Source: Nitrospinae bacterium RIFCSPLOWO2_12_FULL_45_22 (GTDB lineage Bacteria; 2-12-FULL-45-22). Taken from it: a stretch of 5,406 nt of DNA. Below are positions 11 through 4,147 of this stretch, one piece after another. Below the pieces are notes generated by a model. The model was not told the DNA's origin. It made no database searches and was given only the letters and a program-made list of their open reading frames with translations. The stretch is from the NCBI GenBank assembly GCA_001803565.1, contig MHDQ01000221.1, positions 892-6,297 of the forward strand, given 5' to 3'. The position numbers were made by a program, and so were the translations under genes. Positions within the stretch are counted from its first letter, which is position 1; every line of letters starts with the position of its first letter.

Positions 11-34
11 GGCCAATTTTTGGCCCAATTTTTT
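11..34 (+). terminator. Putative rho-independent terminator of an upstream gene outside the window
   Basis: A perfect 6-bp inverted repeat, GGCCAA (11-16) and TTGGCC (20-25), encloses a three-base loop. After a CAA spacer it is followed by six T residues (29-34). This is the shape of an intrinsic terminator reading rightward. The stem is short and the T tract begins three bases after it, so the call is moderate. Its position directly before a promoter supports a transcription-unit boundary. Confidence 0.45.
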
Positions 35-36
35 GA

Positions 37-65
37 TTGACAAAAAATTTTTTCCTTGATAAATT
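37..65 (+). promoter_or_regulatory. Sigma70-type promoter with extended -10, driving the repeat-protein/cytochrome operon
   Basis: A consensus -35 box TTGACA lies at 37-42. Exactly 17 bases later is TAAATT at 60-65, which matches TATAAT at four of six positions and is preceded by TGA (57-59), an extended -10 element. The spacer contains an A6T6 tract (42-53, partly overlapping the -35), which may bend the DNA. Transcription would start near 71-74, upstream of the first gene. Assignment is by eye; the housekeeping sigma factor of the host is assumed. Confidence 0.55.
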
Positions 66-95: not shown

Positions 96-686
96 ATGCT
101 CTGCCTAACGGCGGTGGTTGATCTAGCGAGCGGAAACATCGTGAATATGCATGAAGTGCCGGCTAATCCTGTTAAGCTGAGAGATGTCTTAAAGAAAGCG
201 AGTGCCTTCTTTCGCTTCATATTCCGCCCTGCTTTCCTTCCCTGGCTACTTTCTCCAGAAAAACTCGATTTTAAAGCTGATTCTATAACTACAGATCAAG
301 GGAGGGTAGGATTTTTCCGTCGGCTTTTATCCTCAGAGGTACTGGAGGAAGAGGGGCCAGAGGCAGTAGCTCGGGAGCCAGGGATTAGTTTCTTGCGCTG
401 GCTGTTTTCATCAGAGACACTCCCTGAGGAGGCTTCTATCCCCAACAAATCCAGAGAAAAAGGGTTCTTCTCATGGCTCTTTGCCTCGGAAGGCCTGGGG
501 TATCAGATGCCAGAACCAGATAATGGTCAAGGGAGGGTAGGATTTTTCCGTCGGCTTTTATCCTCAGAGGTACTGGAGGAAGAGGGGCCAGAGGCAATGG
601 GTGGGGAACTAAGGGCTGGCTTCTTTCGCTGGTTATTTGCATCAGAGAAACTCCCTGAAGAAGCCCCACAAAAACTTAAGCGATGA
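96..686 (+). CDS. Hypothetical protein with six 26-residue repeats carrying an F-F-x-W-L-F-x-S-E-x-L motif
   Basis: I do not recognise this family. After a less regular N-terminus, the 196 residues contain six copies of an 11-residue motif starting at residues 47, 73, 99, 124, 150 and 176 (spacing 26, 26, 25, 26, 26). Examples are FLRWLFSSETL and FFRWLFASEKL, usually followed by PEE or EEE. A degenerate extra copy (FFRFIF, residue 38) overlaps the first. Each motif would form a short amphipathic helix with bulky aromatics, joined by acidic, proline/glycine-containing linkers. There is no signal peptide, clear transmembrane helix or cysteine cluster, so a cytoplasmic or membrane-surface location is likely. 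It precedes the cytochrome gene by 18 bases and is probably co-transcribed. The start is uncertain: ATG at 96 has no good ribosome site, and GTG 141 or ATG 147 are in-frame alternatives. An assembly, scaffold or tether role for the downstream complex is only a guess. Confidence 0.75.
   Translation: MLCLTAVVDLASGNIVNMHEVPANPVKLRDVLKKASAFFRFIFRPAFLPWLLSPEKLDFKADSITTDQGRVGFFRRLLSSEVLEEEGPEAVAREPGISFLRWLFSSETLPEEASIPNKSREKGFFSWLFASEGLGYQMPEPDNGQGRVGFFRRLLSSEVLEEEGPEAMGGELRAGFFRWLFASEKLPEEAPQKLKR
296..365 (+). repeat. 70-bp exact direct repeat, copy 1
   Basis: This stretch is identical base for base to 527-596, an offset of 231 bases (77 codons, in frame). It encodes the FFRRLLSSEVL motif and the flanking acidic linker of repeat 2. 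Identity stops sharply: the bases just outside differ on both sides (295 versus 526, 366 versus 597), and similarity beyond the right edge drops to a diverged level. Confidence 0.97.
527..596 (+). repeat. 70-bp exact direct repeat, copy 2
   Basis: Second copy of the sequence at 296-365, encoding repeat 5 of the same protein. Because repeats 3 and 6, which follow each copy, resemble each other less closely, the array looks like a three-repeat block (231 bases) that was duplicated, with repeats 2 and 5 later kept identical or re-homogenised. Confidence 0.97.
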
Positions 687-1176: not shown

Positions 1177-1941
1177 ATGGGACTTTGCCGGAGGGATTTT
1201 TTACGCTGGGGTTTAATGGGGCTGGCAGCCGGGGGTATGGTCACCAGGTCTGTTTACCCAATATATGGAACAGAGGAAGAGGAGCCTAAGAGGGGCCTTG
1301 AGTATAACCCCGAAGACCATTATTATGGATACCTGATTGATACCTATAAATGCATCGGTTGTGGTATGTGTGTTCAGGCCTGCAAAATGGAGAATTCGGT
1401 TCCAGAGAAGTTTTTCCGCACCTGGGTAGAGCGCTACCTCATCGCTGATAATGGTGAAGATTTGGTGGTTGATTCTCCCCATGGGGGTATAAGTGGATTT
1501 CAGCCCGAGGTGACTAAATTTAACATCACCAAGGGATTTTTTGTGCCCAAGATGTGCAACCATTGCCAGAATACACCGTGTATACAGGTTTGTCCCGTAG
1601 GCGCTTCTTACATGACGGAAGATGGCCTGGTTTTGGTGGACTTTAAACATTGTATTGGGTGTGGCTACTGTGTGCAGGCCTGTCCCTATGGGAGTCGTTT
1701 TATGAACCCCTATACCCACACCGCTGACAAATGCACCTGGTGTTACCATCGCATTAGTCGCTATATGCTCCCGGCCTGTGTGCAGGCTTGCCCGGTGAAG
1801 GCGAGGCGTTTTGGTGACCTTAAAGACCCAAATGATGAGGTACGTAGGATCATTGCCACGGAGAGAGTTGGTGTATTGCAGCCTGATCTTTTAACCAAGC
1901 CCAAATGCTTCTACTTGGGATTAGACAAAGAGGTGGTATGA
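1177..1941 (+). CDS. Tat-exported four-cluster [4Fe-4S] ferredoxin subunit (NrfC/DsrO/PsrB-like)
   Basis: The 254-residue protein opens with a twin-arginine signal, CRRDFLRWG (residues 4-12), and a short hydrophobic stretch. No AxA cleavage site is obvious, so the signal may remain as an anchor. Sixteen cysteines fall into four groups: 59/62/65/69, 127/130/135/139, 159/162/165/169 and 186/189/201/205. This is the complete ligand set for four [4Fe-4S] clusters in the DMSO-reductase beta-subunit/NrfC/DsrO fold. The tail ARRFGDLKDPNDEV is characteristic of that family. Tat export puts it on the periplasmic face, where such subunits pass electrons between an NrfD-type quinol site and a partner, here presumably the tetrahaem cytochrome encoded just upstream. 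The next gene begins one base after its stop, indicating translational coupling. Family assignment is firm; the name of the complex is not. Confidence 0.93.
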   Translation: MGLCRRDFLRWGLMGLAAGGMVTRSVYPIYGTEEEEPKRGLEYNPEDHYYGYLIDTYKCIGCGMCVQACKMENSVPEKFFRTWVERYLIADNGEDLVVDSPHGGISGFQPEVTKFNITKGFFVPKMCNHCQNTPCIQVCPVGASYMTEDGLVLVDFKHCIGCGYCVQACPYGSRFMNPYTHTADKCTWCYHRISRYMLPACVQACPVKARRFGDLKDPNDEVRRIIATERVGVLQPDLLTKPKCFYLGLDKEVV

Positions 1942-1942
1942 T

Positions 1943-3151
1943 ATGCTAGAACCCACTTATTACTCCTTTCCTAATGACCTCCATATCCACTGGAGCCTCA
2001 TGATTGTCATGTATCCCTATATTACCGGGTTAGTGGCGGGCGCCTTTATTGTCTCTTCGCTCTATCATGTATTTAACCGTAAGGAGCTGTTTCCCGTAGC
2101 CCGTTTCTCTTTAGGGGCATCGTTTGCCTTTCTCTCGGTTGCTACCTTTCCCTTACTTAACCATTTGGGCCATCCTTTGCGGGGGCCCCTAATCATGATT
2201 ACTCCCAACTTTAGCTCTGCAATGGCGGGTTTCGGACTTATTTATGCCTTTTACTTTCTGGTGGTACTATTAGAGATTTGGCTAATAACCCGGGCAGATA
2301 TTATTCGCTACGCCCGCCAGAGTCGAGGGCTCAAGCGGCTTATGTATAAGCTCCTTGCCCTTGGGGTCTATGATGATTCTCCTGAGGCCTTAGAGTTTGA
2401 TCATAAGACCACCAAGGTATTAGCAGGAATAGGTATCCCAGCCGCATGCCTCTTGCACGGATATGTAGGTTTTCTCTTTGGGGCCCTTAAATCAAACCCC
2501 TGGTGGTCAACCCCCCTCATGCCTATTATCTTTCTCTTCTCTGCTATGGTATCAGGGATTGCTATGATTATAATCCTCTATCAGATTATCATGGTTTACA
2601 AAGGAATAACCATCAATTCTGGGTGCATTCAATCCATGTGCCGGTGGCTGTGGCTTTTCATGATCTTTACCGTAACTCTGGAGATGCTAGAAATCATAAC
2701 CCTGGCCTATGAGCAGGCTGAGGAATGGGAAGTGATCTCCCACCTCTTGACTACCTTTTTGCCCTTTAGCTTCCTGGGCATTCAGGTCGTCTTTGGCTCC
2801 TTGATCCCCTTCATCCTTCTAGCCATAATAGTCCTGATGAACCCTTACCTGACCGATAGGCTGAGAAATACCCTGGCTTTTGTCTCCTCATTTATTTTAC
2901 TGATCCAGGTGTGGTCTATGCGGTGGAACGTAGTTATAGGGGGTCAGATCTTTTCCAAAAGCTTCCGCGGCTTCCGGGATTACCAGCCTCAGTTCCTTGA
3001 AAAAGAGGGTATTTTGGCCTCACTCATTATTTTTGCCTTGCCGTTTATCATTATGGTAATCTATGAAAAGATAATACCCAGCTTTGAGGGCCTTAAGGGG
3101 AGAGAGATGATAACGGAGATCGAGCCGACCGTCCAATATAAAGGGGCATAA
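1943..3151 (+). CDS. NrfD/DsrP-family integral membrane quinol oxidoreductase subunit
   Basis: At 402 residues this matches the usual length of the ten-helix DsrP/HybB/ActC branch rather than the shorter eight-helix PsrC/NrfD type. Hydrophobic segments are seen at about residues 18-42, 55-73, 92-116, 158-181, 191-219, 231-256, 265-300 (probably two), 305-328 and 356-375. Family signatures include HLGHPLRGP with the following PNFSSAMAGFG (74-97) and RWNVVIGGQ (327-335), the latter typical of DsrP/HmcC-like proteins. Such subunits bind (mena)quinol in the membrane and exchange electrons with the adjacent ferredoxin; proton translocation has been proposed for the family. No haem-b protein is encoded nearby. 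AGGTGG (1931-1936), inside the end of the preceding gene, is six bases before ATG. The gene is intact with no oddities. Confidence 0.93.
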   Translation: MLEPTYYSFPNDLHIHWSLMIVMYPYITGLVAGAFIVSSLYHVFNRKELFPVARFSLGASFAFLSVATFPLLNHLGHPLRGPLIMITPNFSSAMAGFGLIYAFYFLVVLLEIWLITRADIIRYARQSRGLKRLMYKLLALGVYDDSPEALEFDHKTTKVLAGIGIPAACLLHGYVGFLFGALKSNPWWSTPLMPIIFLFSAMVSGIAMIIILYQIIMVYKGITINSGCIQSMCRWLWLFMIFTVTLEMLEIITLAYEQAEEWEVISHLLTTFLPFSFLGIQVVFGSLIPFILLAIIVLMNPYLTDRLRNTLAFVSSFILLIQVWSMRWNVVIGGQIFSKSFRGFRDYQPQFLEKEGILASLIIFALPFIIMVIYEKIIPSFEGLKGREMITEIEPTVQYKGA

Positions 3152-3289
3152 AAATCCTACGCAGCCTCCAAATCTTGTTGTGCCAGTTCAGCGATCCTTC
3201 CCCTGTTTTATATTTCATGAAAGAAATGAGCCCTATAGGTTAAATAGTAGGGCATTAGCTCATTAACATCTTTATTGGGAGGGAAGGTT
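3152..3289 (+). other. 138-base leader between the NrfD-type gene and the trihaem cytochrome gene
   Basis: This is the only sizeable gap inside the plus-strand cluster. It has no T-tract terminator after the NrfD-type gene, so read-through is likely. It contains a 10-bp palindrome TTTCATGAAA (3213-3222), a -10-like TATATT (3209-3214) without a convincing -35 partner, and a bulged inverted repeat described separately. The last cytochrome may therefore have its own or adjustable expression. Confidence 0.4.
3225..3264 (+). promoter_or_regulatory. Bulged inverted repeat in the leader of the trihaem cytochrome gene
   Basis: GCCCTA (3230-3235) pairs perfectly with TAGGGC (3248-3253) across a 12-base AT-rich loop, and the adjoining AATGA (3225-3229) can pair with TCATT (3260-3264) after a six-base right-hand bulge. 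AATGAGC/GCTCATT is also a 7-bp repeat on its own. It ends 13 bases before the ribosome-binding site and is not followed by a T tract, so it is more likely an operator, mRNA leader structure or processing site than a terminator. Confidence 0.35.
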
Positions 3290-4147
3290 ATGATTTATAC
3301 TCGAAAGGCGCCCCTTATATGCATCCTGGCAAGCCTTATCTTGTCAACTATATTAACCCTCCCGACCTTTGGAGAGGAGCCGAAGACCCCTTTCATATCT
3401 AAAGACCTGCCAGACTCTTTGGCACACTATTATAAAGGTCGGCGCAACCAGTATGCCTTATCCATGATCGAGCTTGGCCGATTGATGGGCGCCAGCTTCG
3501 AGGAGGCCTATTCAAAAAACTATGACCACGCTATAAAACTCTTCAAGAGTTTTGAGGAGCAATATGACCAGGTCTCTCAAATGGTTCCTGAGTGGGATTA
3601 TTACTTCCCTAATGGACCCCTTCAGGAGGTTGAACAGCTTATCAGCCAAAAGGCCCCTCCAGAGAAAATAAGAGAGAGCGCCAGGAGGGTGGAAAATATC
3701 TGTACCAATTGCCATATTTACGAGATGTTTAAAGTGCAGTCAACTTACCACTGGAAAAAATTTAACCAGATATCTATCGTGAATCAAGATGGGGAGGACA
3801 TAAGTTTCCATACCATAATGATCCAGTTATCTAATAAGTTAGCGGTCATTCCCAGTACCGTCCAAAGGGAGGATTTTGAAGCTGCCCAGCGCCATTTTAA
3901 AGATTTATCAGACAATTTTATTTTTTTGGAGATGTCTTGCAATCGTTGTCATGCTCAGCCCCGAGAATATTTCGTGGATCAACGAGTAAAAGCTCATTGG
4001 TACCAGATTGGGGGTTTAATTCGGCATAAGAAGACAGACCTTGCCGCCTATAACAAGCTGGTAGACCAGGTGTATGAACAAAGCTGTATCCCATGTCACC
4101 GGGTGCATATGCCGGTGGCATTCATGCAAATATACCTTAGCGAATAG
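3290..4147 (+). CDS. Exported trihaem cytochrome with two cytochrome c'-like helical domains
   Basis: ATG 3290 is the chosen start: GGAGG (3278-3282) is seven bases upstream, and the in-frame TTG at 3275 lies against that site. The 285-residue product has a Sec signal (basic 5-6, hydrophobic 8-25, cleavage probably near FGEEP 27-31). Three haem sites are present: CTNCH 138-142, CNRCH 217-221 and CIPCH 266-270. Residues about 42-155 look like a cytochrome c'/c556 four-helix bundle, with YYFPNGP at 104-110 before the last helix and CxxCH near its end. Residues about 170-285 repeat the layout, with the terminal CxxCH about 95 residues from each domain start. The middle haem is an insertion unique to the second half. 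It probably receives or delivers electrons for the quinol complex encoded upstream. Two-domain homology is judged by eye, so haem count is certain but fold is inferred. Confidence 0.85.
   Translation: MIYTRKAPLICILASLILSTILTLPTFGEEPKTPFISKDLPDSLAHYYKGRRNQYALSMIELGRLMGASFEEAYSKNYDHAIKLFKSFEEQYDQVSQMVPEWDYYFPNGPLQEVEQLISQKAPPEKIRESARRVENICTNCHIYEMFKVQSTYHWKKFNQISIVNQDGEDISFHTIMIQLSNKLAVIPSTVQREDFEAAQRHFKDLSDNFIFLEMSCNRCHAQPREYFVDQRVKAHWYQIGGLIRHKKTDLAAYNKLVDQVYEQSCIPCHRVHMPVAFMQIYLSE

Follow-up and report, generated by a model that had tools for sequence, protein, structure and literature searches.

A conserved family of evenly spaced short-motif repeat proteins encoded beside one clade of NrfD-type electron-transfer complexes

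In many anaerobes, NrfD-type complexes transfer electrons from quinol to cytochromes of the periplasm. In the parts of the literature drawn on here, Cbc4 (CbcSTU) of Geobacter is described as a menaquinol:cytochrome c oxidoreductase (PMC11434368) for which, as in the operon studied in this work, a multihaem c-type cytochrome, a ferredoxin-like Fe-S protein and a quinol-interacting membrane subunit are encoded together; that account names three subunits, with neither a repeat protein nor a DUF2339 partner among them. The DsrJOP half of DsrMKJOP has the same multihaem c/Fe-S/NrfD-family architecture, and the portions consulted of the two reviews of NrfD complexes (PMC8076601, PMC11434368) name no repeat subunit. 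CsoS2 and EPYC1 are presented, in the excerpts used here, as multivalent linker proteins (PMC10484944, PMC11570498). They offer a possible analogy to the protein described below, with no homology claimed: in both cases a chain, disordered there and predicted to lack a fold here, carries spaced copies of a short motif, whereas the motif itself is another one and the setting differs, with Rubisco there and membrane respiratory subunits encoded beside the repeat gene here.

We analyzed a stretch of 5,406 nucleotides from Nitrospinae bacterium RIFCSPLOWO2_12_FULL_45_22 (hereafter, the window), whose features are compiled in Table 1. A previous reading of this DNA, made from the sequence only, had placed a repeat gene at the head of a redox operon; this assignment held, as a promoter-like element and a hairpin precede the gene, and the tetrahaem, Fe-S and NrfD genes follow it, the tetrahaem gene starting 18 nt past its end. 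The gene upstream of the operon is presumably ZIP-like, and an eight-N run (an assembly gap; L003 884-891) lies directly before the window start. The tetrahaem protein, with four CxxCH motifs, matched Cytochrome_C7, and the Fe-S subunit, with four cysteine clusters and NrfD adjoining, matched Fer4 families, while its RRDFLR start reached an E value of 0.074 with the Pfam TAT_signal model, which is under the cut-off. The Fe-S and membrane subunits also matched the NCBIfam models for DsrO and DsrP, both with scores under the curated cut-offs (176.6 vs 200 and 38.1 vs 350, respectively). In architecture, the complex belongs to a known type, Cbc4-like or DsrJOP-like (PMC8076601, PMC11434368), the comparison with Cbc4 being drawn from its published description. 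It differs from DsrMKJOP in that its cytochrome has four haem motifs instead of the three of DsrJ, and no DsrMK genes are present in the window. After the NrfD gene, positions 3275-4147 encode a cytochrome with three CxxCH motifs, which was discarded as a conserved operon member because none of the other loci in the set yielded a match to it.

Table 1. Positions of the features discussed, in window coordinates unless a locus is given.
Feature	Position	Strand	Basis
Terminator-like hairpin, 5' of the repeat gene	11..25		
Sigma-70-like promoter, TTGACA-17-TAAATT (L003 928-956)	37..65	+	consensus match only
Repeat protein gene, 196 aa, first in operon	96..686	+	ORF list, homologues
Repeat 0, degenerate, FFRFIFRPAFLP, residues 38-49, overlaps repeat 1	207..242	+	sequence, likeness to L011
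Repeat 1, FLPWLLSPEKL	234..266	+	pattern match
Repeat 2, FFRRLLSSEVL	312..344	+	pattern match
Repeat 3, FLRWLFSSETL	390..422	+	pattern match
Repeat 4, FFSWLFASEGL	465..497	+	pattern match
Repeat 5, FFRRLLSSEVL	543..575	+	pattern match
Repeat 6, FFRWLFASEKL	621..653	+	pattern match
Internal direct duplication, 138 nt, copies 87% identical	296..433 and 527..664	+	direct repeat
Tetrahaem cytochrome c, one N-terminal hydrophobic segment	705..1160	+	four CxxCH motifs
Four-cluster Fe-S subunit, twin-arginine-like start RRDFLR	1177..1941	+	profile matches
NrfD-type membrane subunit	1943..3151	+	PF03916, 7.7e-40; NrfD tree
DUF2339-like gene, examples	L009 4937-6808; L015 8258-9988; L020 3476-5221 (-); L142-L146; L176		

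A pattern scan of the repeat ORF returned six exact matches of F-[FL]-x-[WR]-L-[LF]-[SA]-[SP]-E-x-L, starting at residues 47, 73, 99, 124, 150 and 176 (steps of 26, 26, 25, 26 and 26); 20,000 shuffled versions of the protein gave none, so that the six copies and the period of about 26 residues first reported are indeed present. A degenerate seventh copy, FFRFIFRPAFLP, resembles the first repeat of the homologue at L011, FARWIFRPDFLP. Part of this repetition reflects recent growth of the array, given the high identity of the duplicated segments, which are offset by 231 nt, that is, by three repeat units. No hydrophobic segment of transmembrane length was found in the protein (highest 19-residue Kyte-Doolittle mean, 1.2) and no export signal was evident by eye, in agreement with the sequence-only reading; its description of the linkers as acidic applies to the window protein, but not to most homologues, in which they are proline-rich or mixed. 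Profile searches of Pfam, NCBIfam and PHROGs retrieved no family for the repeat protein, nor was a relative of solved structure found by sequence in the PDB. The protein is therefore as unrecognised as initially stated, and no known unrelated domain was detected in the repeat in the databases searched. An AlphaFold2 model built with 20 aligned family members (pLDDT 62.8, pTM 0.28) had no overall fold, the motifs forming short helices and the stretches that separate them coil; as the alignment was shallow, the model is read as a lack of predicted fold and not as proof of disorder, although the protein is probably disordered. No description of it was found in the titles and abstracts searched, where few subscription journals were covered, and the family is apparently undescribed.

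Homologues of the repeat protein were found at about 40 other loci in at least seven phyla. A first search gave a single match, which was weak and came from G026, a distant genome; there, the opposite strand carries, immediately ahead of the same tetrahaem, Fe-S and NrfD genes, an ORF that is syntenic and shares the motif. An NrfD protein scan then yielded 80 named loci, and a motif matrix was run on the short ORFs preceding their tetrahaem genes. Repeat-bearing ORFs were present in Myxococcota/Deltaproteobacteria, including Anaeromyxobacter, which has the operon at L015, L028, L037 and L044, in Acidobacteriota/Holophagae and in Planctomycetota, as well as in Gemmatimonadota, Schekmaniibacteriota, Hydrogenedentota and Krumholzibacteriota, and this distribution across phyla rules out an orphan or chance repeat. 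The matrix counted 123 repeats in the family proteins and 1.3 per shuffled set; since it was trained on the same proteins, the blind profile test presented below carries more weight. With loci added later, the family comprised 156 repeats in 39 proteins, with two to seven copies per protein and a mean spacing of 25.4 residues (SD 1.6); spacing ranges from 23 to 28 residues across this NrfD clade, and L142 has seven repeats with every step of exactly 28. The family consensus is S/G-[FW]-L-R-W-L-F-[AS]-x-E-x-L-P, in which the glutamate at position 9 occurs in 84% of the repeats and is otherwise mostly aspartate (99% for both together), the leucine at position 11 in 89% and the proline at position 12 in 57%. 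Arginines often precede the motif (33% at position -2) but form no fixed pair, and twin-arginine mimicry by the repeats was accordingly rejected.

Because the NrfD scan selects loci by their NrfD gene, linkage was also tested from the side of the repeats: partly overlapping sets of 386, 289 and 192 whole genomes were searched with no query other than the repeat profile. Matches were obtained in 23 genomes (E < 2e-4), and in 23/23 the repeats adjoin the tetrahaem gene; these genomes are not all independent, as relatives of known carriers formed the core of two sets and some genomes had been sources of the profile. In the first set (386 genomes) alone, 7/7 matches were linked, and they came from seven genera and five families. 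That set also held nine genomes with an NrfD at least 55% identical to that of the window, and repeats were found in all eight of those in which the upstream region is visible, while no profile match appeared in its 18 genomes with a more distant NrfD, three of which were also checked with the motif matrix. Among 30 genomes carrying this NrfD family, the profile matched in 27, the off-locus matches being weak. Two candidate second loci were discarded: G000:C11, the one off-locus match that was read in context, lies out of frame inside a glycosyltransferase gene, and a Desulfocapsa match (60 aa, E 0.008) is weak and was taken as chance. The proposed tie of the repeats to tetrahaem, ferredoxin and NrfD genes is thus strongly supported, and homologues, far from being always unlinked to redox genes, were found linked to them by the profile search. 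Linkage persists even in the rearranged locus L018, where the repeat gene is found immediately beyond NrfD, in opposite orientation. Separately, a second, different Tat Fe-S/NrfD gene set was observed beside the operon at L004 4694-6851 (-), L018 5335-7597 and L021 2202-4594.

A maximum-likelihood tree of NrfD placed every one of the 40 repeat-bearing rows in a single clade of 47 (99/93). Of the other seven rows of this clade, five are truncated at a contig end, and the remaining two are L008 and L010, which have no repeats. These last two keep the complex, show no repeat genome-wide and group together in the tree. Since the carriers share one clade and the two exceptions group together, the repeat gene has had a single gain and probably one loss, and because L008 and L010 keep the complex without repeats, the repeat protein is not indispensable. 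Six of the 22 clade-specific NrfD residues lie in or beside a charged loop at about 115-153, which serves as a lead only, confounded by descent. The join between the repeat and tetrahaem genes is tight: at 25 of 29 loci, no more than 25 nt separate the stop codon of the former from the start of the latter. At L013 (5338-6207) and L039 (1172-1831), repeats and tetrahaem cytochrome share one frame with no stop between them; if these are fusions, the repeats would be cytoplasmic, because such anchors are usually N-in. Both keep a possible internal start codon and may be mere in-frame neighbours. At L009 (2284-3000), the reading frame of the repeats continues into that of a tetrahaem protein without its anchor and first haem motif, which represents a deletion or an assembly error.

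We judge that the repeat protein, conserved and cytoplasmic, serves a new subclass of NrfD complexes as a multivalent tether or as an assembly subunit. Because the family always lies beside the same membrane electron-transfer complex, it is probably a flexible tether with multiple sites, or else a subunit for assembly, of that complex. To the more specific reading we give about an even chance of being correct: one clade of NrfD-type quinol:cytochrome c complexes would possess the protein as a conserved accessory subunit, its mostly disordered chain bearing two to seven short helical motifs on linkers of near-fixed length and sitting, most likely, on the cytoplasmic side. All motifs would dock at a single shared surface on one of the subunits, the candidates being the N-terminus of the tetrahaem protein, NrfD on its cytoplasmic face or an adjoining DUF2339-like membrane protein, and docking would tether several complexes to one another, or a complex to the DUF2339-like protein. 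Location, partner, multivalent binding and clustering are what we infer here. A scaffold mechanism is plausible, and a multivalent tether fits motifs that are helical in a chain without a fold. Furthermore, the near-fixed spacing, combined with free linker sequence, suggests that the distance between the putative binding sites matters. Repeats are more alike within one protein than between proteins, which fits a shared partner for all of them, although recent duplication alone can equally produce this likeness; the first and the last repeat differ from each other more than each does from its own kind in other proteins, and the putative sites may therefore not all be equivalent. That such a disordered scaffold would cluster the NrfD complex and the DUF2339-like protein into arrays from the cytoplasmic side is possible, if doubtful.

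The main rival, which we consider unlikely, is an assembly factor absent from the mature complex, whose repeats would hold several unassembled subunits, be they NrfD, the N-termini of emerging tetrahaem chains or Fe-S subunits awaiting Tat export. The first position in the operon, the tight spacing before the tetrahaem gene, the dispensability in L008 and L010 and the variable copy number are all in line with such a role. However, one-to-one escorting needs no array of two to seven evenly spaced motifs, and the known dedicated Tat chaperones are folded proteins.

Less probable still is that the motifs are amphipathic helices inserting into lipid, in the manner of the MinD tail, and that the protein coats or bends the membrane surface near the complex. 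The aromatic and hydrophobic character of the motif and the basic residues often found just before it would suit an anchor of this type, but in the single motif analysed, the helical hydrophobic moment did not exceed that of its shuffles, on which ground a lipid-binding helix was rejected. Moreover, the nearly fixed spacing, the strongest conservation at E9 and L11 and the common P12 give the motif the look of a protein-binding site.

As for the DUF2339-like polytopic membrane protein, its gene adjoins 23 of the 34 repeat loci and none of the 47 loci not scored as repeat-bearing, which include some short contigs and a few loci without a visible upstream region; in the blind sample, it adjoins the locus in eight of nine genomes of the clade. 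With the DUF2339 model PF10101, three of six neighbours scored above the curated cut-off and two below it, and one gave no match. A genome-wide search with a profile for this protein located an unlinked gene in three repeat-bearing genomes, found no match in several others, including that of the window (85% complete), and found none in any searched genome lacking or not showing the repeat; these negatives are not absolute, because the profile missed G112, whose locus L021 has a diverged copy. On gene neighbourhood, the protein is a frequent companion of the repeat operon and another candidate partner. Its predicted structure is a chain of membrane hairpins with a 37-residue N-terminal helix. 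A Foldseek search of this model against the PDB gave nothing significant (best E 2.8e-3), and VIA-align returned mostly designed helical repeats (best Z 16.6, rmsd 15.4), as is common for helical chains, so this comparison was set aside as uninformative; DUF2339 is named in no title or abstract of the literature searched. It is improbable that this protein is the real partner, with the repeat protein as its ligand or regulator and an indirect link to NrfD: the distribution among loci, blind-sample genomes and repeat-less genomes argues for it, while its lack of a profile match in several repeat genomes, whose assemblies are incomplete, and the fact that the ever-present neighbour of the repeats is the tetrahaem gene argue against it.

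Finally, the coding status of the repeat ORF was assessed in eight pairs, in which dN/dS was 0.24-0.73 in frame and 0.85-3.5 in the other frames, which indicates a real gene under purifying selection. That the ORF encodes no functional protein, being a leader or a low-complexity expansion, is nearly refuted by this selection and by the conservation of motif and spacing across phyla, in spite of the internal duplications and of a five-codon mini-ORF (MAIDR, 79-96; noted by eye) that ends in a TAA overlapping the repeat gene's own ATG.

The repeat family marks a discrete subclass of NrfD complexes in Myxococcota, Acidobacteriota, Planctomycetota, Gemmatimonadota, Krumholzibacteriota, Hydrogenedentota and others, and points to a subunit and a candidate DUF2339 partner that are testable in cultured Anaeromyxobacter. 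If the scaffold reading is true, a membrane electron-transfer complex would have a multivalent scaffold built of short motifs, of a kind not described so far and occurring in many phyla, and the family would reveal how bacteria arrange their respiratory complexes within the membrane.
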